Positions 3,283-20,395 of a DNA stretch of 23,852 nucleotides are shown here, one piece after another (positions within the stretch are counted from its first letter, which is position 1; every line of letters starts with the position of its first letter). Origin of the DNA: a virus; IMG/VR virus record IMGVR_UViG_3300034120_001596, positions 1 through 23,852 of that record; one strand, written 5' to 3'. The notes beneath the pieces were generated by a model, which saw only the letters and a list, made by a program, of their open reading frames with translations, searched no databases and had not been told where the DNA came from. The translations under genes and the position numbers were made by a program.

Positions 3283-3311
3283 ATTATACCATTATTTTGA
3301 TTTTATATCAA
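3283..3311 (-). promoter_or_regulatory. Sigma70-like promoter at the psbA 3' end
   Basis: TTGATA (3311-3306) and TATAAT (3288-3283) are separated by exactly 17 bases on the minus strand. The -35 box overlaps the psbA stop codon. The expected start, around 3276-3278, is at the 5' base of the terminator hairpin. It would drive the zinc-ribbon gene and the genes beyond it. No transcription data are available here. Confidence 0.6.
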
Positions 3312-4387
3312 CCGATAGTTGGTGCAGTTAGAGCAACAGGAGTTGCTTCAACGGCTGCCAAATCCAAAGGAAAATTATGTGCGTTTCTCTCATGCATAAC
3401 TTCCATCCCGAGTCCACCACGATTCAGAATATCAGCCCAAGTAGGAATGACACGGTTCTGACTATCAGTAATCGACTGGTTGAAATTAAATCCATTGAGA
3501 TTAAAAGCCATCGTGGATACACCAAGAGCAGTAAACCAGATGCCTACAACGGGCCAGCTAGCAAGGAAGAAGTGCAGTGAACGAGAGTTGTTAAACGATG
3601 CATATTGGAAAATAAGGCGTCCAAAATAACCGTGAGCAGCAACAATGTTATAAGTCTCTTCTTCTTGACCGAATTTGTAACCGTAGTTCTGCGATTCAGT
3701 TTCAGTTGTTTCACGAACCAGTGAAGAAGTCACCAGCGAACCGTGCATCGCACTAAACAGAGAACCACCGAAGACACCAGCAACTCCAAGCATATGGAAG
3801 GGGTGCATCAGGATGTTGTGCTCTGCCTGGAACACAAGCATGTAGTTAAAAGTACCAGAGATACCCAGAGGCATTGCATCAGAGAAGGAACCTTGTCCAA
3901 AAGGATAAACCAGGAATACGGCAGATGCAGCAGCAACAGGAGCACTGTAAGCAACCATAATCCAAGGACGCATACCTAGACGGTATGAGAGTTCCCATTC
4001 ACGACCCATGTAGCAATAGATGCCAATGAGGAAGTGAAATACAACAAGTTGGAAAGGTCCACCGTTATAAAGCCATTCATCAAGACTTGCTGCTTCCCAG
4101 ATAGGATAGAAGTGAAGTCCGATTGCGTTACTTGAAGGAACAACAGCACCAGAGATGATGTTGTTTCCGTACATGAGTGAACCAGCAACAGGTTCACGAA
4201 TACCGTCAATGTCCACTGGGGGAGCACCGATGAATGCGATAATGAAGCAAGTGGTTGCAGCAAGCAACGTTGGAATCATCAGAACACCAAACCAACCAAC
4301 ATAAAGGCGGTTATTGGTTGAAGTAACCCACTGGCAAAATTGTTCCCAGGAGTTAGTAGATTGTCTTTGAGCAATTGTAGCAGTCAT
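3308..4387 (-). CDS. psbA: Photosystem II reaction-centre protein D1
   Basis: A full-length, uninterrupted 359-residue D1. Functional residues are all in place: Tyr161, Asp170, Glu189, His190 and His198 (chlorophyll P680 region), His215 and His272 (non-haem iron), His332, Glu333, His337 and Asp342 (manganese cluster). The C-terminal cleavage point is after Ala344, in [11 protein letters not shown]. Residue 130 is Glu, the form linked in cyanobacteria to high-light D1. Phage D1 replaces damaged host D1 so photosynthesis continues during infection. The gene has visibly higher GC than its surroundings, in keeping with a host origin. No intron or homing endonuclease interrupts it. There is no Shine-Dalgarno site; its ATG overlaps the stop of a possible 35-codon leader ORF. 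Confidence 0.99.
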
Positions 4388-4491
4388 TTTTCGTTAAAGG
4401 GTAAATAAAAGTCCAGGGGGAACTGGATAGTATAATATTTCCCACAACACCCTCCATTGTGGGTATGAGAGACTATGTTTAACCTCCCCAT
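4384..4491 (-). CDS. Possible psbA leader ORF (uORF), 35 aa
   Basis: In the psbA leader an ATG at 4491 opens a 35-codon frame whose TGA overlaps the psbA ATG (ATGA), the coupling seen at many junctions in this window. The product would start [20 protein letters not shown]. The composition is not typical of a protein and there is no good ribosome site, so chance is a real alternative. The frame also spans two hairpins. It is listed because psbA itself lacks a ribosome site. Confidence 0.3.
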
Positions 4492-4553
4492 AGGTCTCGG
4501 TTAGGTAGAGGATTAATGTTAAGAAATATGAGGATTTCGTAACATTTGTTTAC
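4388..4553 (-). promoter_or_regulatory. psbA: psbA 5' leader with two hairpins
   Basis: About 165 bases separate the predicted transcription start near 4553 from the psbA ATG. Two stems are visible: CCCACAA paired with TTGTGGG (4463-4441, nine-base loop) and TCCAG paired with CTGGA (4427-4412, six-base loop). The second ends about 25 bases before the ATG and is followed by a T-rich stretch. The leader is long for this compact genome and may control psbA translation or RNA stability; that is inference. Confidence 0.45.
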
Positions 4554-4620: not shown

Positions 4621-4833
4621 TTATTCTACTACTTCCGTTTCTGAAAGTGGAATTTCTTCTGGTTCTGGTTCTGGAAGAGTTACACCTGTTTGTGTAAGAT
4701 ACTCAATCGCACCTTGAACCTTCAAAAAAAGTTCTCTTTTTGCTGTAGATTTAGTTTGCAGTCCTTCCAATTCAAGGGAGAGGTCTTGTGCTTGCTTTAC
4801 AAGATTTGCAAGATGTTCTTGTTGTTCGGTCAT
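4621..4833 (-). CDS. Small coiled-coil protein, 70 aa
   Basis: The first 45 residues form a likely amphipathic helix (EQQEHLANLVKQAQDLSLEL, then ELFLKVQGAIEYL) suited to a coiled coil. The tail is proline- and glutamate-rich (LPEPEPEEIPLSE). Its promoter is an exact T4-type late box 22 bases upstream and a strong terminator follows, so it is a late single-gene transcript. This suggests a virion or assembly role, but I recognise no family. No clear ribosome site precedes the ATG. Confidence 0.8.
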   Translation of the reverse strand: MTEQQEHLANLVKQAQDLSLELEGLQTKSTAKRELFLKVQGAIEYLTQTGVTLPEPEPEEIPLSETEVVE

Positions 4834-4854: not shown

Positions 4855-4862
4855 TATTTATA
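4855..4862 (-). promoter_or_regulatory. T4-type late promoter (leftward)
   Basis: An exact TATAAATA on the minus strand ends 22 bases before the ATG of the 70-codon gene. A TATAAT six-mer immediately precedes it, so an overlapping sigma70-like -10 is possible, although only a poor -35 lies 17 bases upstream. Confidence 0.75.
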
Positions 4863-4898: not shown

Positions 4899-4906
4899 TA
4901 TAAATA
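4899..4906 (+). promoter_or_regulatory. T4-type late promoter (rightward)
   Basis: An exact TATAAATA on the plus strand ends 24 bases before the ATG at 4931 and is the only promoter candidate for the four-gene plus-strand block. It diverges from the leftward late box about 40 bases away. Confidence 0.78.
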
Positions 4907-4930: not shown

Positions 4931-5392
4931 ATGAAAAGATTAGCACTTATCTTTTCGTTATTCTTTACTACTCCTGCTTTTGCTGGTGAAATCACATCAA
5001 AAATCACTGACTCCATTCAATTAAGCGTTCAGGGTGCAGCGGTACAATCAGAGAGAGTCGGTGCCTCATATGCAGTTTCAGGCACTAATATTAATGTAAC
5101 AACTCTTGGAGGAGTTGGTGGAGCAGGTTCTTATGGCATCAACACAAACGGACAAGCATTTAGTTTCTCTGAAACATCAATTACTGCAGATGTTGATGTT
5201 ACCTCTCAGTCGGCAGCTTCTGGAACAATTGCTTCTCCCAACCTTTATAGCAACTCTACTACTCAATTAGGTGGAGATAAGGGTTCTCTTGCTGGTACTT
5301 TAAGCGGAACTGGTGTTCCAACAATTACTGCTGGTGGTTCAGGAACAACTGGAACAGCACAACGTAGCGTTGAATTGAGCGTATTTAAGTGA
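4931..5392 (+). CDS. Exported protein with signal peptide, paralogue A
   Basis: This 153-residue protein starts with a classical signal peptide, MKRLALIFSLFFTTPAFA, with likely cleavage before GE at 19. The mature part is rich in Gly, Ser and Thr and low in charge, as in beta-rich surface proteins. It shares with the next protein SYAVSGTNIN at 46-55 and Y.I.T.G..F.FSET at 68-82, so the two are tandem paralogues. It is the first gene after a late box. Signal peptides are unusual for virion proteins; periplasmic or outer-membrane delivery late in infection is the simplest reading. I know of no function. Confidence 0.85.
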   Translation: MKRLALIFSLFFTTPAFAGEITSKITDSIQLSVQGAAVQSERVGASYAVSGTNINVTTLGGVGGAGSYGINTNGQAFSFSETSITADVDVTSQSAASGTIASPNLYSNSTTQLGGDKGSLAGTLSGTGVPTITAGGSGTTGTAQRSVELSVFK

Positions 5393-5751
5393 GACATATA
5401 ACTCTCGGACTGGTTACAGTTCTGGGAGTTATAAGTCCCTCATATGCTGGACCCGTAACTCCCAACTTTACTAGTGGGACCATTACCTCAGAAACCAAAA
5501 CTCGTACTGAAGTTGTAGAAACTATCAGGCAAATAGAGTATTCTACTGGAACATCTTACACAGTAACTGGCACCAACATCAATATACCAGGAACTCCTGC
5601 TCCTGGTATGAATTACACAATTCAAACTCAAGGTGCTCCATTCCAATTTAGTGAGACTTACCTGACTCCTGGAGTGGCAAAGGAAACATGGATAGACAGA
5701 AAAACAACAGAAGATTCTATAACAAATACCATATCAGTCTTTACACAGTAA
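5389..5751 (+). CDS. Exported protein with signal peptide, paralogue B
   Basis: The start is GTG at 5389, overlapping the stop of paralogue A (GTGA). The 120-residue product begins with a signal peptide ending ISPSYA, cleavage expected before GP at 21. The mature region repeats the paralogue A motifs: SYTVTGTNIN at 56-65 and Y.I.TQG..F.FSET at 76-90. It lacks the Gly/Ser/Thr-rich C-terminal half of paralogue A. The end of the gene overlaps the next by 64 nt. Function unknown; co-secretion or a two-part complex with paralogue A is inferred. Confidence 0.85.
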   Translation: MRHITLGLVTVLGVISPSYAGPVTPNFTSGTITSETKTRTEVVETIRQIEYSTGTSYTVTGTNINIPGTPAPGMNYTIQTQGAPFQFSETYLTPGVAKETWIDRKTTEDSITNTISVFTQ

Positions 5752-6299
5752 TCTTTCTTTTACTGTTGACATTGACTGGATCAAACAAATCTAGAGCAGA
5801 ACAAGCACCATCAAATACTAACATCGCAGGACCTTCAGCATCTGCTACTGGTAATGTAACTAACCAGGCAGTTCAGGTGCTTCAAGGTCCTTTTGCTTTG
5901 AATACTTTTGGTGCTGGTGTTTCTTGCCAGGGACCAACATTAAACTTCCAAACCTTCGGATATAATAATACAAATATGAATAATGATCCAGGAAGTTATC
6001 AAACTGGTTCATTAAATGTTGGTCTTTCCGCAGGATTTTCTATTCCTCTTGATGGTTCATTACAAGAACTTTGCAAAACAAGAGCTAGAACAGAAATTAC
6101 AAGACAACAAGCAGAAGCGGATAAAGCAAGACTTGACTTTGAGTTAGTCAGATTATTGAAGTGTGGTGAAGCATTAAAGAATGGAATTTCATTTCATCCA
6201 CAAAGTCCTTATGCAAAAATATGTGCTGATATTGTTGTGAAGTATCCAAGAGTACAGGATGTAGCAAATGGAAATCAAACCAATCCAAATAAGAAGTGA
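5688..6299 (+). CDS. Exported or membrane-anchored protein, 203 aa
   Basis: A basic N-terminus (MDRQKNNRRFYNKY) is followed by a hydrophobic stretch at about 17-30 and SRAEQA, fitting a signal peptide or signal anchor. The mature part has an Asn/Gly/Ser-rich domain with two cysteines at about 80 and 128. Then comes a helical, charged segment (RTEITRQQAEADKARLDFEL) and further cysteines near 158 and 178. AGGA stands seven bases before the ATG. It overlaps the preceding gene by 64 nt and the following one by 32 nt. The four cysteines suit disulphides outside the cytoplasm. Not a family I recognise. Confidence 0.8.
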   Translation: MDRQKNNRRFYNKYHISLYTVIFLLLLTLTGSNKSRAEQAPSNTNIAGPSASATGNVTNQAVQVLQGPFALNTFGAGVSCQGPTLNFQTFGYNNTNMNNDPGSYQTGSLNVGLSAGFSIPLDGSLQELCKTRARTEITRQQAEADKARLDFELVRLLKCGEALKNGISFHPQSPYAKICADIVVKYPRVQDVANGNQTNPNKK

Positions 6300-6936
6300 A
6301 CCACCGCCTATCATTCCAACGATAGAACCTCCCGTAACTCGCAGATCAGAACGAACTGTGATACCTGAAATTGATATGCCTATCGTCAATATGCCAGATA
6401 CAACTATCAAGTATCCAGTGATTAATGTTCCAACTCAAGAAGAGTTTGATGCTGCAGTCAGAGCAGAACAAAGAAAGCAAGAAGAAGAAAAGGAAGAAAA
6501 GACCAGAGGACTTCCTGATACTCAACCAGTCTTACCTCAGGTTCAAGTTCCTGTTCAGGATACTCAAGATAATCGGAATATTTCCAATCAACCGTCTACA
6601 AATACGAATCTGGGAGTACCAGTCATTGAAGTACCAATCGTCGGGGAAGTTCCAATTCCTCCAAAAGAACAGGTTATACTTGCTGGCACCACTGCTACTG
6701 CTTCTGTTGCTGCGGCTATTATTGGCAAATCTATGGTGGAATGGATGGTAGGTAAAATGAAACCTATCGTTCAACAAATATTCATAAGAGGCAAGAAACT
6801 CTTGAACAGAGACCTTACCCCCTATGAATTGCAACTTTATTTTGCGGCAGAATTAGATAGAAAGAATCTCAAATTACTTAAAAAAGAATGGAAGAAAGAA
6901 AAGGTAAACCAATACAAAAAAGCACACGATAAGTAA
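6268..6936 (+). CDS. Proline-rich membrane protein, 222 aa
   Basis: The N-terminal 130 residues are rich in Pro, Val and Ile with repeated short PI/PV units (PPPIIPTIEPP, PVIEVPIVGEVPIPP) around a charged helix near 65-80. A hydrophobic, Ala-rich segment at about 137-153 can span the membrane. The C-terminal 65 residues are strongly basic and helical (LKLLKKEWKKEKVNQYKKAH). This suggests a membrane-tethered stalk. It ends the plus-strand block, and its stop abuts the stop of the nuclease gene on the other strand with no gap. Function unknown. Confidence 0.8.
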   Translation: MEIKPIQIRSEPPPIIPTIEPPVTRRSERTVIPEIDMPIVNMPDTTIKYPVINVPTQEEFDAAVRAEQRKQEEEKEEKTRGLPDTQPVLPQVQVPVQDTQDNRNISNQPSTNTNLGVPVIEVPIVGEVPIPPKEQVILAGTTATASVAAAIIGKSMVEWMVGKMKPIVQQIFIRGKKLLNRDLTPYELQLYFAAELDRKNLKLLKKEWKKEKVNQYKKAHDK

Positions 6937-7861: not shown

Positions 7862-7966
7862 TTATTTCTTCTTACCACCGTTTTTTGCTTTTTTTGCTGT
7901 AGCATTACCTTGATTCTGTTTGGATCCAGCAGAACCTTTCTTACCTTTGTTTGCTGATTTTGCCAT
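7862..7966 (-). CDS. Lysine-rich basic peptide, 34 aa
   Basis: The ATG at 7966 shares a base with the stop of the holin-like gene (TAATG). The product is nearly all Lys, Gly, Ala, Ser and Asn (MAKSANKGKKGSAGSKQNQG, then TAKKAKNGGKKK), with about a third lysine and no hydrophobic residues. It resembles histone-tail or nucleic-acid-neutralising peptides. The extreme composition with correct coupling argues that it is translated. Function unknown; binding DNA, RNA or the cell wall is possible. Confidence 0.65.
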   Translation of the reverse strand: MAKSANKGKKGSAGSKQNQGNATAKKAKNGGKKK

Positions 7967-8322
7967 TATGCCCCTGTGCGAGGTTGAACAAATCCTTCAC
8001 CATCTTCTACTTTGGTTTCTAGTGCCTCAACTCTTGCTTCAAGAGTTTCTGGTGGTGCTTCAAGAGCAGGTGGTTCTGGTGGTGTTTCTACAAACTCTTC
8101 TCTTTTAGGTTCTTGTTTTTTTTCATCTTCATCATCTCCACCTTTCTTCATTGTATTAATACCAAAAGTAGCAGCAGATGCAGTGAAAACTGTCGCAATA
8201 AAGGTGGGATCCATCTTAGATAGAGCACCCGAATAACTTGCGGTGAGAAGAGCAGCAGACCAACCCAAAATACATATACGAATTAGTTGTCCCATAGCAT
8301 TTTCGTTTTTCTTGTTAGTCAT
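7966..8322 (-). CDS. Holin-like two-span membrane protein, 118 aa
   Basis: Two hydrophobic segments (about 12-30 and 39-58) are separated by a short loop containing KMDPT. They are followed by a highly charged, proline-rich region (60-90) and a short heptad-like helix (LEARVEALETKVED). Small size, two spans and a charged C-terminus are the common plan of class II holins, and the gene directly follows the lysozyme gene in the same operon. No family signature is evident, so holin is an inference from layout and context. No Shine-Dalgarno site is visible at the start. Confidence 0.6.
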   Translation of the reverse strand: MTNKKNENAMGQLIRICILGWSAALLTASYSGALSKMDPTFIATVFTASAATFGINTMKKGGDDEDEKKQEPKREEFVETPPEPPALEAPPETLEARVEALETKVEDGEGFVQPRTGA

Positions 8323-8340: not shown

Positions 8341-9012
8341 TTAACCTTTTTTCCAAGATTCACCTTCTGCTTTTCTTCTACGAGCAAGTCCTGCTTCTAC
8401 ATTAGAACCAGGATTTCTGTAGAGGTAAAGCGCATCGGGAACTTTGTCCCATTCTTTATTCTTCAGTGTACGAGTAATAGTATTAAAGTTATCGCCACCA
8501 TAAAACCCAGCACCAAGATTATAAGCAAAAGAAAGTAGGGCACCTCTTTTACCATCAGACATTTCATTCCAGTGTGGAATTTTACGAAGTGATGGAAGAA
8601 ACTGGTTCTTACACTGACTAATCAGAAGTTCATCTGCTTCTTGTTGTGTAATTTGGTCTCCCATTTGGAATGCAGATCCATCTTTCTTGCGAGTTGAACC
8701 CCAACCAATTGTGATTGGAAGTCCACCTGAGAGAGGATCTGGATATGCTTTCAGATGGCATCCCTCGAACTCTTTGATTAATTTAAGGCCCATCATAGGC
8801 ATATCGTCACCACCTGCTACGGGAGCGGCAACAGATGGTCCTGATGCTGGTGCCGCATTACCCTTTTTTCCTCTATAAATCTCTGCCCAATCTACATTAT
8901 CTTCTAGATATTTGACTGGTAAATTATCTTCTAACCACTGAACTGCCTTGACATGGTTGGGGTTTTTCTCATCATAAAATTTGAAAAAGTTATGTAAATC
9001 AATTCTTGCCAT
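8341..9012 (-). CDS. GH24 lysozyme (endolysin) with extra N-terminal module
   Basis: The 223-residue protein has an N-terminal module (1-45, LHNFFKFYDEKNPNHVKAVQ) also found in the C39-like peptidase two genes upstream. An Ala/Pro/Gly linker (about 52-70) follows, then a GH24 lysozyme domain. Alignment by eye with T4 lysozyme puts the catalytic triad at Glu83 (FEG), Asp92 (AYPD) and Thr101 (TIGWG). The C-terminal GLARRR..EG.SW is typical of the family. It would cleave the glycan of host peptidoglycan. There is no signal peptide, so release needs a holin or delivery on the virion. GGAGG precedes the ATG. Confidence 0.92.
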   Translation of the reverse strand: MARIDLHNFFKFYDEKNPNHVKAVQWLEDNLPVKYLEDNVDWAEIYRGKKGNAAPASGPSVAAPVAGGDDMPMMGLKLIKEFEGCHLKAYPDPLSGGLPITIGWGSTRKKDGSAFQMGDQITQQEADELLISQCKNQFLPSLRKIPHWNEMSDGKRGALLSFAYNLGAGFYGGDNFNTITRTLKNKEWDKVPDALYLYRNPGSNVEAGLARRRKAEGESWKKG

Positions 9013-9136
9013 TGTTTCCTCCGAAATACTTTTGATAAAGGTCGTTTGCTTCTTTATGTTTTCCGTGATTTGTAAGATCTTTTATGATCTTAAGAATCTT
9101 TCTTTTAAAATCAATCGAAGATTCTTCCCCACCCAT
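8999..9136 (-). CDS. Small charged helical protein, 45 aa
   Basis: The start is ATG at 9136 because a perfect AGGAGG lies five bases upstream; an upstream in-frame extension to 9199 would run deep into the peptidase gene. The product, starting MGGEESSIDFKRKILKIIKD, is a probable helix with Lys, Ile, His and Tyr. It overlaps the end of the peptidase gene by 26 bases and the lysozyme start by 14, and carries the lysozyme ribosome site within its last codons. It sits between two cell-wall enzymes and may act with them. Confidence 0.72.
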   Translation of the reverse strand: MGGEESSIDFKRKILKIIKDLTNHGKHKEANDLYQKYFGGNNGKN

Positions 9137-9782
9137 CGTTTCCTCCTGGGCACCAACGATGCTTGAGAACTGCTTTGGTATAAATGGTCTTCTTACCATT
9201 TGTGACTGGACCAGTATAGTTATCGTTTAGAGAACCATATGGATCATTTACATAGTATCCTTTACCATCTGGAGTCTTACCGATGACTACACACATGTGC
9301 CCACCAGTAGGAGAAGATAGAGAACCACGGTGCAAAATACCAATAACAACTGGTTTTCCTCTATCAAGACTCTTATCAATGTCAGCAAAAGAAAGATTGT
9401 AACTAAAATGTGACTTAATACCATAACCTGCGAGAACCTTTGTCTGAACCGCATGGTCAGTTGTGTCACCAATCGCAAATACTTTTTTAACATATTCATC
9501 ATCACCCTTGATGCTTCCTGGCTTGAGGAAAGCAAGGCACATAGCACACGATGAACTGTTACAAGTTCTATGAGCATCTCTGTAGTTATCTACTTGGTTG
9601 AAATATGGAACGTCAAGAACTGCTGGGGTAGGTGGTTTGGTTCTAAACATTCCGATCCAATCGGTATCTGCGTCATCCATAAACTCAACAGGAAGGTTAT
9701 CTTCTAACCATTGAACTGCTGCTACATGGTTTGCATTATTCTCATCATAATACTTAAAAAAGTTATGAAGATCTAAGGTCAT
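9111..9782 (-). CDS. C39-like cysteine peptidase with lysozyme-shared N-terminal module
   Basis: Residues 1-47 match the N-terminal module of the lysozyme (DLHNFFKYYDENNANHVAAV, then QWLEDNLPV). From about 55 a C39/papain-like domain follows: YFNQVDNY with Gln63 as oxyanion residue, NSSSCAM with Cys79 as nucleophile, GGHMCVVIG with His162, and VNDPYG with Asn179/Asp180. Related phage proteins act on peptidoglycan peptides or are carried on tails. There is no signal peptide. GAGG is five bases before the ATG. The pair with the lysozyme suggests attack on both glycan and peptide, but the substrate is not proven. Confidence 0.85.
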   Translation of the reverse strand: MTLDLHNFFKYYDENNANHVAAVQWLEDNLPVEFMDDADTDWIGMFRTKPPTPAVLDVPYFNQVDNYRDAHRTCNSSSCAMCLAFLKPGSIKGDDEYVKKVFAIGDTTDHAVQTKVLAGYGIKSHFSYNLSFADIDKSLDRGKPVVIGILHRGSLSSPTGGHMCVVIGKTPDGKGYYVNDPYGSLNDNYTGPVTNGKKTIYTKAVLKHRWCPGGNDGWGRIFD

Positions 9783-10588: not shown

Positions 10589-11296
10589 TCAATTATCACT
10601 TTTCCTTTCTATCCTATATGCTCTTCCTGCTTCATCGAATCCATCAATTTCGATATATTCCGTTTCTTCATTAATATCATCATTTGGAACTAAACAAAGA
10701 TATGGACCAGGTATTCTATCAGTATTACTGTAATTTCTATGACCAGAAATATGGTAATGTGCGGAAACAATTTGTTTGCCTGGATTTTTTAATTTATATC
10801 CTTGATCTGCCATTAATTTGGCAATTTTATTATCACATCCAGGTTTACCTAAAGTAAATTCCATCTCATCAGTTGTTGTGATTGGAGTCTTAAACAACCA
10901 AACATCTTGAGACGATGAATTGTTAAATGGAGCAATACACCATTCACCATTTTCACAAAATACTTCCCATCTAGTTAAAGCAAGAAAAACTTTATCCAAA
11001 TCAGCATCTTTTACAACTGCAATACTATCATCTAAGATAATATCTGCATTTGCAATTATGCAAATTTGATCTTTTAAATTTTTATTACAAAATTCAAAAA
11101 GATCTTTATAAGTAGGTCTTTCTTCTCTTTGAATTATTTCTATTTTATCTGATTTAAAATTTAATTTAGAATCATCAGAAATGAAAACATATATCTTTTC
11201 AATGTACTCATTTTCCAAATTCTCGTGAATACAAGTAAGATATTCACTATGCCTCTGATAATCAGGGGATCTAAAATATTCTATCAATAAATTCAT
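10589..11296 (-). CDS. Glycosyltransferase-like protein, 235 aa
   Basis: The N-terminal half looks like a GT-A fold: MNLLIEYFRS as first strand, YVFISDD, and ICIIANADIILDD at about 78-90 with an acidic metal-binding motif. Later blocks SQDVWLFK and CDNKIAKLMADQGY resemble the acceptor side of phage and LPS glycosyltransferases. I cannot name a CAZy family. It is the last gene of the glycan operon; its ATG overlaps the epimerase stop (ATGA). Donor and acceptor are unknown. Confidence 0.7.
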   Translation of the reverse strand: MNLLIEYFRSPDYQRHSEYLTCIHENLENEYIEKIYVFISDDSKLNFKSDKIEIIQREERPTYKDLFEFCNKNLKDQICIIANADIILDDSIAVVKDADLDKVFLALTRWEVFCENGEWCIAPFNNSSSQDVWLFKTPITTTDEMEFTLGKPGCDNKIAKLMADQGYKLKNPGKQIVSAHYHISGHRNYSNTDRIPGPYLCLVPNDDINEETEYIEIDGFDEAGRAYRIERKSDN

Positions 11297-12186
11297 TGAG
11301 TTTTAATCCAATCCATTAAATTTACTTGAGGTCTCCATCCAAAAATGGTTCTCAATTTTCCATTATTTGCAAGAGTAATTCGTGATTCTCCAATTCTTGC
11401 TGGAATATTTATTTGTTTATCAGATATAACATTTGCAATTTCATTAATTGAGTAATTCACACCATTACCCACATTATAAAGTTCACCATAATATTCATCA
11501 TCAATATCTTTTGTTGCTGCAAGAATATTTGCTTGAACTACATCAGATACGTGTGTAAAGTCTCTACGTTGTTCCCCATCCCCAACAATAGTAAGAGGTT
11601 CACCATCCTTTCGTTGACGTAAGAAAATACCAATAACTGGAGCATATTGTCCTTTTAAAGGTTGCCTTTCACCATAAACATTAAAATACCTAAAGGAAAT
11701 TGTTTTAAGACCAAATAAGTCATTATACATTTTGCAGAGTTTTTCTCCAGCAACTTTAGATACCGAATATGGATTTAAACAATCATCTCGTTGATTTTCG
11801 TGATTTGGTTTTTCATTAAATCCATAACCAGAAGATGTAGAAGAATAAATCACTTTCTTTACTCCTGCTTCTCTAGCACACTGAAGGACTGTAACAGTAC
11901 CTACACAATTAATACTAACTGTTTCAATAGGACTTAAAATTGCTGGTTGAATCCTTGCCTCAGCAGCAAGATGAAATACATAATCTACACCTTCATACAA
12001 AGGTCGCGTATTTTCATAATCCCGAATATCATACTTATAATTTTTTGCTTTTGTATTCCAATAAAATTGATCATGAACATCGGAAAATTCATTATCAATA
12101 ACAATTACATCATGTCCCAATTCCAATAGTTTATCTACAATATGAGACCCAATAAATCCAGCACCACCAGTTACTAATGATTTCAT
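11293..12186 (-). CDS. NAD-dependent sugar-nucleotide epimerase/dehydratase (SDR)
   Basis: An extended SDR enzyme: GGAGFIG at 7-13 binds NAD, YVFHLAAEA at 69-77, SSTSSGYG at 115-122, and catalytic Tyr140 and Lys144 in YSVSK. RYFNVYGERQ and FTHVSDVV are typical of UDP-glucose/UDP-glucuronate 4-epimerase and related proteins. At 297 residues it is slightly short for the class. The likely reaction is C4 epimerisation of a UDP- or dTDP-sugar, for example UDP-Glc to UDP-Gal, which would feed the UDP-galactopyranose mutase in the same operon; substrate choice is inference. It is preceded by a 36-base gap. Confidence 0.88.
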   Translation of the reverse strand: MKSLVTGGAGFIGSHIVDKLLELGHDVIVIDNEFSDVHDQFYWNTKAKNYKYDIRDYENTRPLYEGVDYVFHLAAEARIQPAILSPIETVSINCVGTVTVLQCAREAGVKKVIYSSTSSGYGFNEKPNHENQRDDCLNPYSVSKVAGEKLCKMYNDLFGLKTISFRYFNVYGERQPLKGQYAPVIGIFLRQRKDGEPLTIVGDGEQRRDFTHVSDVVQANILAATKDIDDEYYGELYNVGNGVNYSINEIANVISDKQINIPARIGESRITLANNGKLRTIFGWRPQVNLMDWIKTQ

Positions 12187-12222
12187 TTTTATACTAAATC
12201 CTCAATTTTAAAAATTAATTTT

Positions 12223-13317
12223 TTATATAATCTCAGAATAAAGATCAATAATTTGTTGTTTTACTTTATCGTAAGAGTATTTTTCAAAATATTTATTCAA
12301 TGTATTTTCACTCATTTCACGATAAAGATCTTTATTATCTTGAATTGATTTAAGTTTATTTGCATAATCTTCAACAGTATATGCCATATAACCACATCCG
12401 TCTATCTGCTCCAAATGCCCCATAGATACAGTTCCTGGGTGTGTAACAATTGGTTTTCCGTGATACATTGCCTCAATTATTGCAACAGAACAAACTTCAC
12501 CATCAATTCTTGCGTGTGCGTATACATCAATTGCACTAAGAAAATTATGAATTAATTCTTGATTTGATGAAAAATCAATAAAGTGTATATTTTTTAAATC
12601 TAATTGCTTTGCCAATTCTCTGTGCTTAGTACTTCCTCCAAGTAAAATAAAATGATTATTGGAATCAGATATCATTGAATATGCATATAGAGAAACTGGA
12701 GAAAAAAGATTTAAATCATCTCTTTGATGAAATCCATAAACAAAAGCATCTTCAGGAATACCAAGTTGTTCCCTAAGATTAGATTTAAATTTTTTAGGAA
12801 CAGAGACTAAATTTGGTATAACAACTGCCTTTTTAATATTACCTCCATTGTTTGCCCATTTATTTGCCTGCCAGTTTGATATTAAAATTGCTTTTACAAT
12901 ATTATCTTTATCTTCTCCCCCATCCCCATGAATGCTATCAACAATTTTTGTTTTGTTAATTAAATTGAAAGGGTATTCTGAATATCCACCCCTAGCAGTT
13001 TGGATTACATCATAATCAGTTTCATTAAAAAGATCCCAAAAATTAGTATTATTCCAAATAAATGGAGAATTGTGACCGTCTTTAGACTCAACATAAACAG
13101 GTATTGTATTAATACCGAATGATTCTACCCATTGTTTACGTTCTTCATCATTGTCTGGGTGAACAAACCAATGATTTAAAAAGGGTGCTGCATTAGTATA
13201 ATAATAATCAACAACATAATCATCTTGTTGAGATAGAATCATCGCAATGTTTTGCAATGATTTTTCAGTTCCTCCTGATGCCAATCCAGCAAATTTAATA
13301 CAAGCTATTTTTTTCAT
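12223..13317 (-). CDS. GT4-type glycosyltransferase (GT-B fold)
   Basis: The 364-residue protein has the two-domain GT-B plan. The N-terminal domain starts KKIACIKFAGLASGGTEKSL with the glycine-rich loop; SIHGDGGEDKDN follows near 128-139. The C-terminal domain has YGFHQRDDLNLF, then ILLGGS, and the donor-binding EX7E motif at Glu274 and Glu282, followed by AMYHGKPIVTHPG. These are signs of a retaining GT4-like enzyme using a nucleotide sugar. Its start overlaps the FkbM gene stop (ATGA). Confidence 0.85.
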   Translation of the reverse strand: MKKIACIKFAGLASGGTEKSLQNIAMILSQQDDYVVDYYYTNAAPFLNHWFVHPDNDEERKQWVESFGINTIPVYVESKDGHNSPFIWNNTNFWDLFNETDYDVIQTARGGYSEYPFNLINKTKIVDSIHGDGGEDKDNIVKAILISNWQANKWANNGGNIKKAVVIPNLVSVPKKFKSNLREQLGIPEDAFVYGFHQRDDLNLFSPVSLYAYSMISDSNNHFILLGGSTKHRELAKQLDLKNIHFIDFSSNQELIHNFLSAIDVYAHARIDGEVCSVAIIEAMYHGKPIVTHPGTVSMGHLEQIDGCGYMAYTVEDYANKLKSIQDNKDLYREMSENTLNKYFEKYSYDKVKQQIIDLYSEII

Positions 13318-13961
13318 ATATCATTCTTTTTAAAAAGTATGTCATTAACTCCAAGTTCATCATCCATTTCTATGGAATATCCCTTTGATATCATATAGTC
13401 TATTATAACTTTTCTTCTATGATCCCAACTGGCAGTTTCTATAAGAAAATAAGTAGGTGAAACCTTTTCAAAAGTCAATCCATTAAGTGCAGATATTTCA
13501 TATCCTTCTACATCTAAGGAAAACAAATCAATATGGTTTATTTTATGTTTTTCCAAAAGTTCATCAATTGTTTTTGCGGGGACCTCTGTTAAATCATTTG
13601 CAATCAAATCTTTATGTTCTTTTAAAATTTCATCACACCAATCTCCAGAATCATAAACCATTGCAGTCAATGACTCTGCATATCCAGTATGATTAAAATT
13701 GCCAGTAATAGTTTTTTTATCATAATTATGACTAACTAAAGCACAATTTTCCACTATAGAATTTTTTCTATGTGCTTTACATTCAAGATATTTTTTAAAA
13801 TTAGGTTCTACCAATAAACCTTTCCATCCATACTCAAATTCATATAAAGCAGTATTTGATTGGGAAATCCCATCATTTGCTCCTGCCTCAACAAAAAATC
13901 CATTTTCAAAATTTAAAATCTTTAAAATTTTTTCATCCAAATTATGCAATCCGTAAGACAT
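13314..13961 (-). CDS. FkbM-family SAM-dependent methyltransferase
   Basis: The 215-residue protein shows FkbM motifs: FFVEAGANDGISQSNT at 22-37 for SAM binding, WKGLLVEP at 46-53, and IDLFSLDVEGYEISALNG near 143-160. Enzymes of this family O-methylate sugar hydroxyls in LPS, capsules and natural products. In this operon it probably caps or decorates a sugar in the glycan, which can also block receptor recognition. The length is typical. Confidence 0.9.
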   Translation of the reverse strand: MSYGLHNLDEKILKILNFENGFFVEAGANDGISQSNTALYEFEYGWKGLLVEPNFKKYLECKAHRKNSIVENCALVSHNYDKKTITGNFNHTGYAESLTAMVYDSGDWCDEILKEHKDLIANDLTEVPAKTIDELLEKHKINHIDLFSLDVEGYEISALNGLTFEKVSPTYFLIETASWDHRRKVIIDYMISKGYSIEMDDELGVNDILFKKNDI

Positions 13962-13965
13962 TTAA

Positions 13966-14679
13966 TTACCTCAAAGTTGAATTATAATCACCACTTTTAG
14001 ATCCCTGATAAAACAGTGATGGGAGTGACCAGTACACATTCATATTTAACTTATAAAATTGATATGCCAATTCCCAATCACTTACAAGTTGAAAAGGAAT
14101 AATTGACTCATAGATTTTTTTCGCAGTATCTTTTTTTATTAAATATGCTTCCGCACAATTAGTAGAAGGGGGAGGAACATAAAATAAATTATCACTAATT
14201 TGTTTTAAATTATCAATTTTGGAAGAAATAAAATCATACCCACAACCTTGACCCAAAAAAATTGCATCCCAATCTTTTGGTGCTTGTTCAATTATTAAAT
14301 CTATTTTATCAAAAGGATTTTCAAATGAAGGCAAAATATCATCTTCAACCACTAAACAAAAATCATCTTCCTGTTCTGAAACTTTTTTTAAAGCACAAAT
14401 ATGCTTAATAGTACAAGAAATTTCAGCATCATTTAAAACTCTAAACCAATTTTCTCTCAAATCCCATTCAGGAGGATTAAAAGCAGTTTCAATTTTATGC
14501 TCAAACATATCTTTGTCTGCTTTATAAAATTGGTCTACAATTTCTTTAGTAAAGTCATCTTTATCATATTCTTCAATAAATTCATATTGAATAGGAATAT
14601 TTTTAAAAATTTCTAAAACTTTTTTTCTTCTTTCTTTTAATCTAGTGTAATGAATTACAAAAACTTTGTTTAATTTCAT
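13966..14679 (-). CDS. GT25-family glycosyltransferase
   Basis: The N-terminus KVFVIHYTRLKERRKKVLEI is the family opening (strand, then a hydroxyl-rich turn and Arg-rich helix). ISCTIKHICALKKVSEQEDD precedes the acidic motif VVEDD at 110-114, the metal site. The 237-residue length fits LPS GT25 enzymes, often beta-galactosyltransferases. Four bases separate it from the glf gene and four from FkbM. Acceptor unknown. Confidence 0.88.
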   Translation of the reverse strand: MKLNKVFVIHYTRLKERRKKVLEIFKNIPIQYEFIEEYDKDDFTKEIVDQFYKADKDMFEHKIETAFNPPEWDLRENWFRVLNDAEISCTIKHICALKKVSEQEDDFCLVVEDDILPSFENPFDKIDLIIEQAPKDWDAIFLGQGCGYDFISSKIDNLKQISDNLFYVPPPSTNCAEAYLIKKDTAKKIYESIIPFQLVSDWELAYQFYKLNMNVYWSLPSLFYQGSKSGDYNSTLR

Positions 14680-14682
14680 ACT

Positions 14683-15771
14683 CTATTTTATACTTGTTTT
14701 AAATTTATTAAAGGCAGATTCAATTACTACGTGCATATCCATATATTTGTATTCAGATAGTCTACCCCCAAATACAAAATTTTTCAAGGTTTTGCTTTTT
14801 TCCTGATATTTTTTGTATATAGATTGATTAAATTCATCATTTATTGGATAATACGGAACAAGTCCCTCTTCATATTTTTTTGAATATTCCTTTGTAATTA
14901 TTGTTTTATTAGTATCTGTTTTTTCAAAATGTTTATGTTCAACTATCCTAGTCCACTTTTTAATATTGCAAGTATAATTCAATTGGGAAACTCCCTGATA
15001 ATTATCAACATTTAGAATTTCAGTATCAAATTTTAAAGATCTATATTCAAGTTTACCAAATTCATAATCAAAAAATTCATCTATACATCCAGTATAAATT
15101 ACAGTATTTGCTAAAGAATTATAATATTCTCTATCCGAAAAGTAATCACAATTTAATTTAATGGGAATGCCATCCAAAATTTTTTCAAACATTTTAGTAT
15201 ATCCCCCTATAGGAATTCCTTGATACCTATCATTAAAATAATTATTATCAAATGTAAACCTTAAAGGAAGTCTTTTAATAATAAAAGAAGGAAGTTCAGT
15301 GGCAGGTCTTCCCCATTGTTTTTCGGTATATCCTTTAATTAAAATTTCATAGATATCTTTACCGACAAGAGACAATGCTTGTTCCTCAAGATTTGTAGGA
15401 AAATCTTTAAATTTTTGAGAATCTATAATTAACTTTGCATGTTGAGGATTTGCAGTATTCCACAATTCATAAAATGTATTCATATTAAATGGCAAAGAAT
15501 ATATTTTATTCTTATACCAAGCTTTTGGGGAATGAATATAATTATTAAATTCAGCAAATCTATTTACAAAATCCCAAACTATTTTATTGCTTGTATGGAA
15601 AATATGAGGTCCATACTTATGGACGTTAATTCCTTCTACATTTTCCGTATAGCAATTCCCTGCAATATGATTTCTTTTATCTACAATAATACAAGACTTT
15701 CCTACATCAGTAGCAAGTCTTGCAAAAGTTGCTCCAAATAAACCGCATCCAACAATTAAGTAATCATACAT
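14683..15771 (-). CDS. glf: UDP-galactopyranose mutase
   Basis: The 362-residue flavoenzyme shows GCGLFGATFARL at 8-19 (FAD fold), VDKRNHIAGNCY at 30-41, HKYGPHIFHT at 51-60, YTEKQWG and GIPIGGYTKMF. It converts UDP-galactopyranose to UDP-galactofuranose through an FAD-linked intermediate. This implies that the glycan contains Galf, a sugar common in bacterial LPS and capsules. Length and motifs are complete. It sits between the DUF3431-like gene and the GT25 gene, either of which could use its product. Confidence 0.95.
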   Translation of the reverse strand: MYDYLIVGCGLFGATFARLATDVGKSCIIVDKRNHIAGNCYTENVEGINVHKYGPHIFHTSNKIVWDFVNRFAEFNNYIHSPKAWYKNKIYSLPFNMNTFYELWNTANPQHAKLIIDSQKFKDFPTNLEEQALSLVGKDIYEILIKGYTEKQWGRPATELPSFIIKRLPLRFTFDNNYFNDRYQGIPIGGYTKMFEKILDGIPIKLNCDYFSDREYYNSLANTVIYTGCIDEFFDYEFGKLEYRSLKFDTEILNVDNYQGVSQLNYTCNIKKWTRIVEHKHFEKTDTNKTIITKEYSKKYEEGLVPYYPINDEFNQSIYKKYQEKSKTLKNFVFGGRLSEYKYMDMHVVIESAFNKFKTSIK

Positions 15772-15777
15772 AAATTA

Positions 15778-16419
15778 TCAATAATTCCAATTATTTTCAG
15801 TAAAAATATAAGCCCACATTCTTTCTAAGAAATGTGCCTCTTCTGGATTATGATGATTAGGAAAAGACTCCAAAAGTCTTTGATAAAAATCTTTTGTTCT
15901 AGATAAAATAAAATCCTTTCTAACCCCAAAGCATCCACACCAACAAACAGGAGTTATTTGTGGTATTTTATTAAAATGATTTTGCACATAATCTTTAAAT
16001 TTGATTTCACTTAATTTCAAAAATCCACTTTCAACCTGAGATTTATATCTTGGATCGGAAAGAAAGTCAATATCATTCCATAAAGTTTCATTAAAAAATC
16101 CAATATTACTAGCAGAAAATCCATTATTTTCAATTTCAACAACATATTGCATTAAGTTTTTAAAAACATTAATACCAATATCTTTTATATCACCTTGAAG
16201 AAATATTGTTCCATCATATAAAGAATCATAATTTTCTACAATATGATGAAGATATGTTTGAGATTCTCTCCCATAATTTGGCAATTCAACTACTGTATAG
16301 TTATTATTATCTATTTTTTCTCCTTTATTATAGACAATAATGTCAAACTCATCTTTCCATTTCATTAACCAATCTAAATTTTCACCATATCTTGATATGA
16401 CTAATTGATTTTTATTCAT
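15778..16419 (-). CDS. DUF3431-like protein, probable glycosyltransferase
   Basis: Motifs seen: NQLVISRYGENLDWLMKW at 4-21, ELPNYGRESQTYLHHIVENY near 45-64, TIFLQGDIKD, and CWCGCFGVRKDFILSR. These recall the DUF3431 family, found in sugar-transfer clusters of bacteria and fungi and often predicted to be glycosyltransferases. It has no DxD motif, so catalysis is unproven. It lies six bases upstream of glf in transcription order. Confidence 0.78.
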   Translation of the reverse strand: MNKNQLVISRYGENLDWLMKWKDEFDIIVYNKGEKIDNNNYTVVELPNYGRESQTYLHHIVENYDSLYDGTIFLQGDIKDIGINVFKNLMQYVVEIENNGFSASNIGFFNETLWNDIDFLSDPRYKSQVESGFLKLSEIKFKDYVQNHFNKIPQITPVCWCGCFGVRKDFILSRTKDFYQRLLESFPNHHNPEEAHFLERMWAYIFTENNWNY

Positions 16420-16423
16420 TTAA

Positions 16424-16945
16424 TTATAATTTAACCAAATGAGTAGAACAATAAGATTCAATATATTCAATTGATCCTGTTTTTTTAATATCATTAATTA
16501 GTTTCTCAATTTCTGTGCAGAAATTTTTATCCCCCATATAATGATTCATATCATCTATCATAATTACACTATCATTAAATTTTTCCGAATATTTTTGTAT
16601 AGCATTAATTTCTTTCGGTAAATAAACATTCATCAATTCACCAATATAATCTCCACCAGACCAATGAGCATCTAACCACAAAACAAAAGGATCATTAATA
16701 CTCTCTAATACTTTTGGAAGTTCTTCTTCAGAACTTCCACAAATTAAATGGACATTTTTTTTATCTTTAAATCTTTCTTTACATTTTTCAAAAAGATTTG
16801 GATTCAACTCAATACTATAAATTTCTTCAAACCCAGCATTTAGAGCACATTCAACTCCATCTCCATCTGCGGTTCCCGTTTCAATAAAAATTTTCCTATC
16901 TCCTCTACGTTCAATAAGTTCAGAAGCATTTGGATTTAATGGCAT
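16424..16945 (-). CDS. SAM-dependent methyltransferase-like protein, 173 aa
   Basis: A Rossmann-type SAM-binding start is visible in IFIETGTADGDGVECAL at 19-35 and IYSIELNPNLFEKCKERF. VLWLDAHWSGGDY and VIMIDDMNHY follow as strand-end motifs. It resembles class I methyltransferases seen in sugar-modification clusters. At 173 residues it is short, near the minimal fold. AGGAG precedes the ATG. The methyl acceptor is probably a sugar hydroxyl, by context. Confidence 0.75.
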   Translation of the reverse strand: MPLNPNASELIERRGDRKIFIETGTADGDGVECALNAGFEEIYSIELNPNLFEKCKERFKDKKNVHLICGSSEEELPKVLESINDPFVLWLDAHWSGGDYIGELMNVYLPKEINAIQKYSEKFNDSVIMIDDMNHYMGDKNFCTEIEKLINDIKKTGSIEYIESYCSTHLVKL

Positions 16946-16954
16946 TTTTTTCTC

Positions 16955-17875
16955 CTATTTTAAGATTTTTTCTTTAATAAAGTTAATAACATTTTTTGGT
17001 TTTGCAAACTCTGGTATTTTATTATCTTTAAACCAAGGTTGACTAATTATTTTAGCATACAAATCATAATTTGTATCTATTTCCATAATTTTATCTACAA
17101 CAATTTCATCATCCTCATACTGGTGCCAGTTTATAAATGATTCTTCATTAAAATCACCAACAACAGCATTTGAACCCCAATAAATTGGAATACAATTTGC
17201 AAACATAGAATGAATTATTTTTTCACTAACATACCCATAATCTGGGCAATTTTCCATACTAATGTTAAATTTAAAATTTTTCAAATAATCAATTTTCCAT
17301 CTTTGATCACCACGACCAATTATATTTCCATTAGTATTATTATACATTCTCCCAGCACAATGAACAAATTGTTTAAGATGTAATTTTGGAACAAACTCTA
17401 CTCTTTTACCAAAAGGTTGTGTATTAACAAAAGAACAAAATGCTTGTTTTTGTGATAGAATTTTTTCTGGATCTTTTGGTGCTAAAAATTCTTCCAATGA
17501 ATGAAGATACGATTGATCTCTATTATCATCATGAGGAACATTAAACCAATTAAGATGAAGGATCCAAAGAGGAAGTCTATAATTTCTTTCATCTCCAGTA
17601 TCCTCATACCCAAAAGAAAAATGAGTTTCATTATAATTGGGTCTATGAATATGAGGTGGTTCTGCTGTAAAATAAACTTTTTTTGTTATACCGTTATCAT
17701 AACGAAGATGTCCTTTTTGGTTATGATAATCTACACTATGAAATAAAATATCTGGTCTATTTTCTTCAATTACAACTTCATATTCTTGACTCAATAGATG
17801 ATAAAAATAATTATCGGTTTTAATAAAATTTGGCCAAAAGTCTACAAAGTCTACTGTCAATTTTTCTTTTTTCAT
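16955..17875 (-). CDS. GT10-family fucosyltransferase
   Basis: The 306-residue protein contains the GT10 donor-binding block FKFNISMENC at 201-210, YVSEKI at 215-220 with Glu218, then CIPIYWGS and DFNEESFINW near 228-250. An N-terminal AEPPHIHRPN is at 71-80. GT10 enzymes transfer L-fucose from GDP-fucose, usually in alpha-1,3 or alpha-1,4 linkage. Gmd and Fcl in the same transcript would supply the donor, so the assignment is consistent. The start overlaps the preceding stop (ATGA). Confidence 0.92.
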   Translation of the reverse strand: MKKEKLTVDFVDFWPNFIKTDNYFYHLLSQEYEVVIEENRPDILFHSVDYHNQKGHLRYDNGITKKVYFTAEPPHIHRPNYNETHFSFGYEDTGDERNYRLPLWILHLNWFNVPHDDNRDQSYLHSLEEFLAPKDPEKILSQKQAFCSFVNTQPFGKRVEFVPKLHLKQFVHCAGRMYNNTNGNIIGRGDQRWKIDYLKNFKFNISMENCPDYGYVSEKIIHSMFANCIPIYWGSNAVVGDFNEESFINWHQYEDDEIVVDKIMEIDTNYDLYAKIISQPWFKDNKIPEFAKPKNVINFIKEKILK

Positions 17876-18627
17876 AAATCAAACCACTCTTTTCTCCATT
17901 GTTGTCCACCAGCAAAATGACGAATAATCACATCTTCTTTTGGTGTTTTATTTATTAAAAATTCACAACTGGATTCCCCCTCAAGTTCAGTAACATTCCA
18001 AGCAGTTGGAAGAACTTCAACATGTTCATAAAGTTCTTCCAATGAATAAACAGTCCATTCATTTTTATCAGAATGCCAACCAAAATCAGACAAATTCCAA
18101 AATGGTTCATCAGAATGTCTTTTAATTCCCGCAAGAGAATACCAAGATGCTTGTTCACGAAATTCATGCCAAAAACTATTCACATACCCAAACCTTTCAT
18201 GTTTAGATACAACATCATTAAGTTCTTTATATCTATCTTCTGAAAGAATATTTGAAATTAATTGTCTAGACCATTCATTAATTTTAATAGAAAAAGATCC
18301 CATACAATGAGTATTTCCAGAATCAATAGAATATGAAAAAGATTTTGTTGTTTCATATGGAATATCTATTTTTGCAACGCACATATCAGCATCAAGATGT
18401 GTTACAATATCTCCATCTTTAATATATCCTTCATCAAGCATTTGCTCAAGAACAGTAAATTTTAACCAGGTATAACTTCCACGATACTTGTATAAATTTT
18501 CTTTTAACTCAAGATACTCAAATCCATGCTTATCTGCATATTCTTGATTTCTTGGAGACATATATTCATTGAAAAAATCTTGCCTTTGATCATTATAATC
18601 AGCAAAAACTAGTAATATTTTTTTCAT
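17872..18627 (-). CDS. GT-A glycosyltransferase, 251 aa (GT34-like)
   Basis: From MKKILLVFADYNDQRQDFFN the protein shows a GT-A start, WLKFTVLEQMLDEG, and GDIVTHLDADMC with the DxD motif Asp79/Asp81. FREQASWYSLAG and IIRHFAGGQQW resemble the galactosyl/mannosyltransferase GMA12/MNN10 (GT34) class; the family call is tentative. The start is ATG at 18627, where AAGGA is five bases upstream and the codon overlaps the previous stop (ATGA). An upstream extension to 18678 lies inside the previous gene. Confidence 0.78.
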   Translation of the reverse strand: MKKILLVFADYNDQRQDFFNEYMSPRNQEYADKHGFEYLELKENLYKYRGSYTWLKFTVLEQMLDEGYIKDGDIVTHLDADMCVAKIDIPYETTKSFSYSIDSGNTHCMGSFSIKINEWSRQLISNILSEDRYKELNDVVSKHERFGYVNSFWHEFREQASWYSLAGIKRHSDEPFWNLSDFGWHSDKNEWTVYSLEELYEHVEVLPTAWNVTELEGESSCEFLINKTPKEDVIIRHFAGGQQWRKEWFDL

Positions 18628-19535
18628 TCGTCCTTTCCAGTTAAAACATATTCTACAATATTTTTTGTAGTAAAGCAACCTACCACTTTTTTATATCCAT
18701 TTTCTGCTATACGATTTCTTTCCTGATCATTATTTAAATAAAATTGTATCTTTTCAAGTGCTTCTTCCTTCGTAGAATATAATACAATTTCCTCATCTTC
18801 AATAAACATATCTTCTAATTGTTTATTTGAATTAAGTCTATCAGTAATTACCAATTTTTTACAAGACATTCCTTCAAAAATACGTCGAGTAACTTCACCA
18901 TATCTTGCTTTTTGAAAAACTATTTTTCCATTTCTATAAAGATCTCCATTTTCAATATCTTTTAAATTATTTTTAAGATAAAAAGAAGATCCAAGTTTTT
19001 CTTGAAGATACTTAACAACTTCACCTCTGTCTCCATACATTGTTGTAACAACATCAAATGGTTCATAATTAGTAAAAGATGGATAGTAAATATTCAAATC
19101 TGTCCAATGTGAAGTAAATATAGTGCAATATCCCAAAGATTTATAATGCAAATAACAATCTATATCTGGTGTTAGTATAAGATCCGCATTTTTAGTTCTT
19201 TTTTGATTGTAATGAAATGTTTGAGGTTCATCTCCACAATCAACAACTAATTTGCTTTTTGGAAAATTATTTTTATCAAACAATTCATCAGGTGCTGGAC
19301 CACAAACTTGCCATAAAATAATATCAGGAATGAATTCACCAGAATCATATTGTTTTTTTAATTGATTAAAACCAAATGATTTATCATTACTAGGAGTTGG
19401 ATACCATCTTATTTCTGCGATTCTTTTATCACTAACAAAAGCATCAAATATTCCCCTAGGAGTAGACCAAAATTTTTCTTTTCCGTATTTTTTATATTCA
19501 TCTATAGAATAATCAGATAATAGTGCTATTTTCAT
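18624..19535 (-). CDS. CgeB-like glycosyltransferase, 303 aa
   Basis: The N-terminus (MKIALLSDYSIDEYKKYGKE) leads a GT-B-like fold. PDIILWQVCGPAPDEL, NADLILTPDIDCYLHYKSLG and the C-terminal RRIFEGMSCKKLVITDRL, then EEIVLYSTKEEALEKIQFYL, are typical of the CgeB/Glyco_trans_1_2 group. These act in glycan maturation with unknown specificity. The gene is joined to both neighbours by ATGA overlaps. Confidence 0.8.
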   Translation of the reverse strand: MKIALLSDYSIDEYKKYGKEKFWSTPRGIFDAFVSDKRIAEIRWYPTPSNDKSFGFNQLKKQYDSGEFIPDIILWQVCGPAPDELFDKNNFPKSKLVVDCGDEPQTFHYNQKRTKNADLILTPDIDCYLHYKSLGYCTIFTSHWTDLNIYYPSFTNYEPFDVVTTMYGDRGEVVKYLQEKLGSSFYLKNNLKDIENGDLYRNGKIVFQKARYGEVTRRIFEGMSCKKLVITDRLNSNKQLEDMFIEDEEIVLYSTKEEALEKIQFYLNNDQERNRIAENGYKKVVGCFTTKNIVEYVLTGKDE

Positions 19536-20395
19536 AATCTTTTTATAATGTTTTTAAACATTCCTTCAAGAGAAAAATATTCATCATATACTTTTTTTCC
19601 ATTTTCAAGCAGTCTATTATATTCTACATCATCTATTGATTTAAGTATAGCATCAATATCCTCAATCTCATCTTCATTTACAGGAACACAAAAATCATTC
19701 CAATCCAATTCATCAGTCCAAGGAAGATAATGAATATCTGAAATATAAACAGGGACAGTTCCAAGTTGAAGAATTTCATATAATCTAAAACTACTCTTCC
19801 CATATCCTCTTGGAGCAAGTCCAAATTTACTAGAGCAAGTTATGTCTAGAAATCTTTTAAAGTTGTCTATGGGGACTTCTGTAGACCAGTTGCCAGCAGA
19901 AATTTTATATCCTTCTTTTCCAGATAGATGATTACACATATCTATACGAATTGGATGAGTATTTCTAGAACCAACAAAAGAAGCAAAAATAGTTTTTTCT
20001 TTTTTAGGAATTAATTCTTTTGGAATAGAACTACAAATCAAAGGAATTGGAATAATATTATCTCCTTCACGGTTTCCACCAGCAGAAAAAATTAAAGTAT
20101 CTTCTGGAAATTTTTCAAAAGGTCCATCATCAAATTGAGATACAGTGAAATATTTCCCATCTTTATTCAAAACAGAATTCAATTGTTCTTGAATATTTTG
20201 ATACTGTTGTCCCGCAAACATTGAATTGCAAAAATTATTCGTCCAGAAGACATCAATGTATTGCCTATCAGTTTCAATATTTTCTTCGTTCCACCTCTTA
20301 AAGAAATATTCTTCAAGATACTCTCCAGTATGATATGGAGGATATGTTGGTGAGATAGATGCAGGTCTTAATACATCATTTTTTATAAGTACCAT
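19532..20395 (-). CDS. Exostosin-like glycosyltransferase (GT47)
   Basis: The block KFGLAPRGYGKSSFRLYEIL, then QLGTVPVYISD and LPWTDELDWNDFCV, is the hallmark of the exostosin/GT47 fold and places the nucleotide site in the C-terminal half. KTIFASFVGSRNTHPIR precedes it. The protein has 287 residues and lacks the membrane anchor of eukaryotic exostosins. GGAGG lies close before the ATG, within the last codons of the upstream gene. Donor unknown. Confidence 0.88.
   Translation of the reverse strand: MVLIKNDVLRPASISPTYPPYHTGEYLEEYFFKRWNEENIETDRQYIDVFWTNNFCNSMFAGQQYQNIQEQLNSVLNKDGKYFTVSQFDDGPFEKFPEDTLIFSAGGNREGDNIIPIPLICSSIPKELIPKKEKTIFASFVGSRNTHPIRIDMCNHLSGKEGYKISAGNWSTEVPIDNFKRFLDITCSSKFGLAPRGYGKSSFRLYEILQLGTVPVYISDIHYLPWTDELDWNDFCVPVNEDEIEDIDAILKSIDDVEYNRLLENGKKVYDEYFSLEGMFKNIIKRL

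Follow-up and report, generated by a model that had tools for sequence, protein, structure and literature searches.

A late gene module of exported and membrane proteins common to cyanomyoviruses and cyanopodoviruses, and its candidate role in host lysis

Introduction

Phage T7 keeps its holin gene and the Rz/Rz1 pair between the tail-fibre and the terminase genes. How phages of Prochlorococcus and Synechococcus cross the outer membrane at lysis is of wider interest, since lysis of these cyanobacteria by phages drives a large flux of carbon in surface waters. In a large survey, some 20 phages of these hosts came out without a spanin, and the hosts were suggested to be able, perhaps, to dispense with one. 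Kongari et al. (2018; PMC6139136) list P-SSP7, Syn5, Syn9, P-HM1 and S-SM1, among others, as lacking spanins, and suggest that the i-spanin could be replaced by a protein of type I, N-out/C-in topology. In the part of their account that deals with them, Sullivan et al. (2010; PMC3037559) describe T4-GCs 218, 219, 234, 235 and 237 as a cluster made up of five hypothetical proteins and found in all marine cyanomyoviruses except S-PM2. That part gives no function, puts mobility down to a plasmid-stability gene and draws no link to podoviruses, lysis or export signals.

Here we analyse an IMG/VR virus record of 23,852 bases (the window), which carries psbA, a lysozyme gene and a long sugar/glycosyltransferase cluster. 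A preliminary description had singled out positions 4931 to 6936 as a four-gene late block of three exported proteins and a membrane protein, with no recognised family, that might build a structure in the host envelope, assist lysis or block other phages.

Results

Organisation of the locus

The four ORFs are contiguous on the + strand: P1 (4931–5392, 153 aa), P2 (5389–5751, 120 aa, GTG start), P3 (5688–6299, 203 aa) and P4 (6268–6936, 222 aa). Overlaps of 4 nt (P1/P2), 64 nt (P2/P3) and 32 nt (P3/P4) point to one transcription and translation unit. The P2/P3 overlap is present at every locus scored, with medians of 64, 166 and 112 nt in the three groups of loci described below, and the P1–P4 order is repeated in IMG/VR contigs.

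A T4-type late promoter, TATAAATA, is found at 4899–4906 (+), 25 nt before the P1 start; one exact octamer in the window does not exceed chance, and its weight comes from position and recurrence. The general form of the late-promoter motif, NATAAATA, has been reported for cyanomyoviruses (PMC2984593). Upstream of P1, this form occurs in 25/59 freshwater and 28/68 marine homologues, against an expectation of ~1.3% (about 0.013 per site); the same scan never found it upstream of P2, P3 or P4. This is what a single late operon with P1 as its first gene would show, and it bears out the word "late" in the preliminary description. A second TATAAATA lies in the opposite direction at 4855–4862 (−), 22 nt before a 70-aa gene (4621–4833, −), so that P1 and this gene would have divergent late promoters. 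In the same region, a PhotoRC-II RNA (4427–4521, −; 79.1 bits, gathering threshold 39) is located directly upstream of psbA (3308–4387).

The exported proteins P1, P2 and P3

Span, signal and lipobox calls were made with simple hydropathy and motif rules rather than with SignalP or LipoSearch. P1 and P2 have classical Sec signal peptides, with cleavage predicted between TTPAFA and GE and between SPSYA and GP, respectively. In P3, for which a signal anchor had also been considered, the basic n-region is longer and cleavage between SRA and EQ is plausible, so that a cleaved signal is the likelier. A simple rule, which 22% of background ORFs of 100 aa or more also pass, recognised signal-like starts in 57/59 P1, 70/70 P2 and 75/77 P3 freshwater homologues. 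Thus, the three consecutive signal peptides initially noticed are confirmed, and the export signals are kept beyond chance.

All four proteins fall into existing families, contrary to the first impression, and these families have no functional assignment. P1, which is beta-rich, belongs to phrog_564 (T4-GC237; Syn9 gp167). By score, P2 is a member of DUF6322 (PF19847; 53.0 bits against a cut-off of 30.6) and of phrog_650 (T4-GC236; Syn9 gp166; P-SSP7_044), and P3 of phrog_848 (189.9 bits, E 1.1e-55) and also phrog_1755 (T4-GC235; Syn9 gp165; P-SSP7_045). Profile comparison of P1 with P2 (hhalign) gave 97.6% and E 3.8e-12, and on this sequence comparison P1 is a paralogue of P2; among the phages tested, P1 occurs only in myoviruses (cyanomyoviruses). 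At E up to 1e-3, tblastn retrieved 276, 388 and 465 phage records for P1, P2 and P3, all of them cyanophages or uncultured marine viruses. A homologue scan of genome contigs yielded four matches only, all in metagenome-assembled genomes where phage contigs may have been binned.

Mature P3 contains exactly four cysteines in 73/76, 72/73 and 71/73 homologues of the three groups, and no cysteine is conserved in mature P1 or P2 (P1 itself has none). For P3, such a pattern would be typical of a periplasmic protein that forms two disulfides. No lipobox was seen in freshwater P1 and P2 homologues, and a loose motif picked out 2/71 of those of P3; P1–P3 have no lipid anchor, and no barrel signal for the outer membrane is obvious in them.

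Structure prediction had been proposed in the preliminary description. The P2 model (120 sequences; pLDDT 76, pTM 0.32) consists of two 24-residue strands and a small insert. In the PDB it is matched best, and in each case weakly, by phage collar proteins and beta-pore stems (Foldseek E no lower than 9e-3, VIA Z no higher than 3.6). The collar and tail proteins include those of Andhra (E 9e-3) and phi29 (E 2e-2). The two long strands also align with the beta-hairpin stems of aerolysin, lysenin and similar pores (VIA Z 2.0–3.6; Foldseek E 0.05–0.1, lowest 0.049), at scores too low for homology, any long ribbon matching any other. We take the matches of this model as a hint only. Searches of PDB sequences with the P3 and P2 profiles returned nothing below E 0.05. 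The P3 model is poor (pLDDT 48) and shows a strand pair followed by a long helix. A TolC-type identity for P3 was rejected, its match to the outer membrane efflux protein family (PF02321) scoring 14.3 bits, below the cut-off of 22.

Vibrio podoviruses (28–29 records) encode two consecutive signal-peptide proteins, the second of which has the four-cysteine pattern of P3 (loci L089:5286–6291 and L098:8411–9417). This relative of P3 outside cyanophages is preceded by an exported, Ser/Thr-rich protein, and its gene comes after a large structural-type gene. DUF6450 (see below) and a detectable P2 are absent from these phages; either P3 works there without this holin family, or the Vibrio proteins belong to another system.

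The membrane protein P4

P4 has the membrane span, proline-rich region and basic tail originally ascribed to it: a proline-rich N-terminal arm is followed by one moderately hydrophobic span and a basic C-terminal tail, with neither a signal peptide nor a lipobox and no coiled coil. In homologues the span lies at 56–71% of the length with a basic flank after it, and net charges after/before the span are +4.4/−1.9, +5.9/−1.6 and +5.5/−2.8. Flank charge gives N-out/C-in for 193/199 homologues, the topology predicted for P4 by the positive-inside rule. P4 (phrog_9426) diverges fast. With tblastn, it retrieved DSL-LC02 and DSL-LC03 only; the freshwater profile reaches P-SSP7_042 (2.7e-15), S-RIP1 (2.4e-10) and P-SCSP1u (1.8e-8), and marine GC234 proteins weakly (5e-6, 1e-4). 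P4 is thus related to P-SSP7_042 and T4-GC234 (Syn9 gp164).

Compared with described spanins, the locus lacks the o-spanin lipoprotein of two-component systems: a simple motif scan found no lipobox frame in the window or in the complete P-SCSP1u and P-SSP7 genomes. P4, with its late span, does not have the N-terminal type II anchor of an i-spanin, nor is it the single lipoprotein with a C-terminal span that defines a unimolecular spanin. Its predicted topology fits the type I, N-out/C-in protein proposed by Kongari et al. (PMC6139136).

A holin-like protein and neighbouring lytic enzymes

A DUF6450 protein of 118 aa (7966–8322, −; phrog_721/21865/2714) has two predicted spans. The family corresponds to GC218 in S-SM1, gp161 in Syn9 and PSSP7_043 in P-SSP7. 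A GH24-type lysozyme gene (8341–9012, −; endolysin matches to phrog_7 and phrog_28234) is located 18 nt upstream on the same strand, and a distance of 18–30 nt on the same strand was found in 19 locus pairs of freshwater phages. As a small protein with at least one span encoded beside an endolysin, the DUF6450 protein is a probable holin; PHROGs does not call it one. Late promoters precede DUF6450 at 28/45 marine and 9/58 freshwater loci.

The next gene (9111–9782, −) reads as a C39-peptidase-like protein, in line with the C39 annotation of the corresponding DSL-LC02 gene, and is probably a second lytic enzyme. It has an N-terminus of ~50 residues nearly identical to that of the lysozyme (LHNFFK.YDE.N.NHV.AVQWLEDNLPV), probably a targeting or wall-binding domain. 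Beyond it, a long run of glycosyltransferase, methyltransferase and nucleotide-sugar genes occupies 10589–22985 (−). By reading, this run includes a UDP-galactopyranose mutase-like gene (14683–15771), a GDP-fucose synthase-like gene (21023–22012) and a GDP-mannose dehydratase-like gene (21984–22985). A tRNA-Ile (23121–23194) adjoins the run.

Conservation across phages

The five families were called in 80 IMG/VR loci from each of three groups (freshwater, marine and podovirus); as the loci are the best matches to the seed and not independent, the counts measure consistency rather than frequency. In 45 freshwater loci P1-P2-P3-P4 are followed by DUF6450 on the opposite strand, and in 9 others P4 is inverted and so lies on the same strand as DUF6450. 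The latter arrangement is that of 53 marine loci. In 65 podovirus loci the order is P4-DUF6450-P2-P3, all on one strand. Most other loci have shorter forms of the same orders, as expected at contig or locus ends. The set stays together while the strand of P4 and the gene order vary between groups, which argues for a function rather than mere inheritance. Thus, P2, P3, P4 and DUF6450 form one module in freshwater and marine cyanomyoviruses and in T7-like cyanopodoviruses, a relationship that is new here. The four-gene block stands at its coordinates and was incomplete: the late module common to the two phage types has five genes, the fifth being DUF6450, and P1 is optional and confined to cyanomyoviruses.

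Genome labels equate GC237 with P1, GC236 with P2, GC235 with P3, GC234 with the P4 family and GC218 with DUF6450. As far as the relevant part of Sullivan et al. (PMC3037559) describes it, theirs is the same gene cluster in marine cyanomyoviruses, and the cluster as such has been known since that report. S-SM1 GC219 (L093:16710–17270; phrog_605; Syn9 gp163), a conserved protein that gave no Pfam match, lies between DUF6450 and P4 in marine cyanomyoviruses and is a possible extra member.

The P-SSP7 module comes after the tail-fibre genes and before those for terminase. The minimal, 38-gene genome of P-SCSP1u has kept it; among its 38 genes, a span or signal is predicted only in module genes 30–33 and in gene 21, whose position suggests the equivalent of T7 gp14, an internal virion protein. 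Presence across cyanomyoviruses, a check proposed in the preliminary description, was found in freshwater and marine phages alike, with exceptions. S-PM2 lacks P1, P2, P3 and DUF6450 together and infects the same hosts, so the module is not universally required. In S-CREM2, ORF174 and ORF176 had been candidates for P1 and P3 on size and spacing and were rejected; this phage lacks P1–P3, and its proteome therefore says nothing on their virion membership. The GenBank labels of S-SM1 were likewise rejected as virion evidence, GC15, published as a virion protein of this phage, being labelled hypothetical.

Discussion

Among the roles initially proposed, help in lysis is the best supported, envelope structure and phage blocking less so. 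On balance, we lean towards a late lysis module that disrupts the outer membrane without lipoproteins or spanins, with P4 as the N-out/C-in partner in the inner membrane. We favour this reading because P2, P3, P4 and the holin-like DUF6450 stay together in three groups of loci, the P-SSP7 module sits at the position of the T7 holin and Rz/Rz1, and the two-span DUF6450 protein is encoded next to the endolysin gene. It also draws on the late promoters before both P1 and DUF6450, the four cysteines kept in mature P3, the joint absence of P1, P2, P3 and DUF6450 from S-PM2, and the near-confinement of exported and membrane proteins to the module in P-SCSP1u, where no lipobox frame is found. Finally, these phages are listed as spanin-less and P4 has the topology suggested for an i-spanin substitute (PMC6139136). 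Against it stand the ability of S-PM2 to do without the module, the lack of a lipid anchor or obvious barrel signal in P1–P3, the moderately hydrophobic span of P4 without a coiled coil, the Vibrio podoviruses with a P3-like protein and neither DUF6450 nor a detectable P2, and the fact that PHROGs does not call DUF6450 a holin.

In such a scheme, P1–P4 would be the exported half of the lysis module, and DUF6450 and the neighbouring endolysin the other half. P1, P2 and P3 would be made late and exported via Sec into the periplasm, where two disulfides may stabilise P3. P4 would reside in the inner membrane, its proline-rich arm facing the periplasm and its basic tail the cytoplasm. After respiration has been stopped by the holin and the peptidoglycan cut by the endolysin, an assembly of P4 with P2 and P3, with P1 added in myoviruses, would form a bridge to the outer membrane and open it, as a lipoprotein-free counterpart of Rz/Rz1. 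We infer that these proteins oligomerise, that they touch the outer membrane and that they disrupt it. A more specific version, in which the long beta-ribbons of P2 (and P1 in myoviruses) and disulfide-bonded P3 form an outer-membrane pore or wedge that is activated by way of the P4 arm, is speculative and in our view rather unlikely; if true, it would constitute a third route beside spanins and membrane-active endolysins/disruptins.

The exported proteins might instead alter or mask the surface of the host at a late stage of infection, for instance by blocking a receptor against re-adsorption or a second phage, the holin-like neighbour being merely expressed at the same time. They are secreted, conserved and close to tail-fibre genes in P-SSP7, the Vibrio relative of P3 follows a structural-type gene, and cyanophages lack the r genes that serve T4 in lysis inhibition and superinfection (PMC2984593). 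We nevertheless regard surface masking as unlikely: the exported proteins stay linked to DUF6450 and P4 through strand flips and in two phage families, and expression is late, not early. Receptor blockers usually track the receptor, whereas P2 and P3 stay conserved among phages whose hosts differ.

Late expression, the fibre genes next to the module in P-SSP7 and the weak resemblance of the P2 model to the Andhra and phi29 proteins would also suit small decorations of the tail or capsid whose Sec signals are incidental. Such a virion role seems quite unlikely, since Sec export takes a protein out of the compartment where virions assemble, and the signals of P1, P2 and P3 and the cysteine pattern of P3 are kept across lineages; the proteins modelled by cryo-EM of P-SCSP1u are confined to those of portal, adaptor, nozzle, fibre and capsid, which leaves room for minor components. 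Still less probable is an outer-membrane channel, formed by P3 with P1/P2, for secretion or nutrient flux during infection: the efflux-protein match is below its cut-off, the strand-strand-long helix order that recalls such a channel comes from a low-confidence model, and the retention of the module by minimal 38-gene phages favours an essential over an accessory step.

A conserved candidate module in the two main lytic cyanophage families makes outer-membrane crossing at lysis testable. Like Rz/Rz1 of lambda and gp18.5/gp18.7 of T7, it consists of late, overlapping genes for an inner-membrane protein and an exported partner, includes a proline-rich part and, in T7-like phages, occupies the position of the lysis cassette. 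It differs from them in that no member is a lipoprotein, in that P4 is predicted to be N-out with a late span where i-spanins have an N-terminal type II anchor, and in that two or three additional exported proteins are part of the set.
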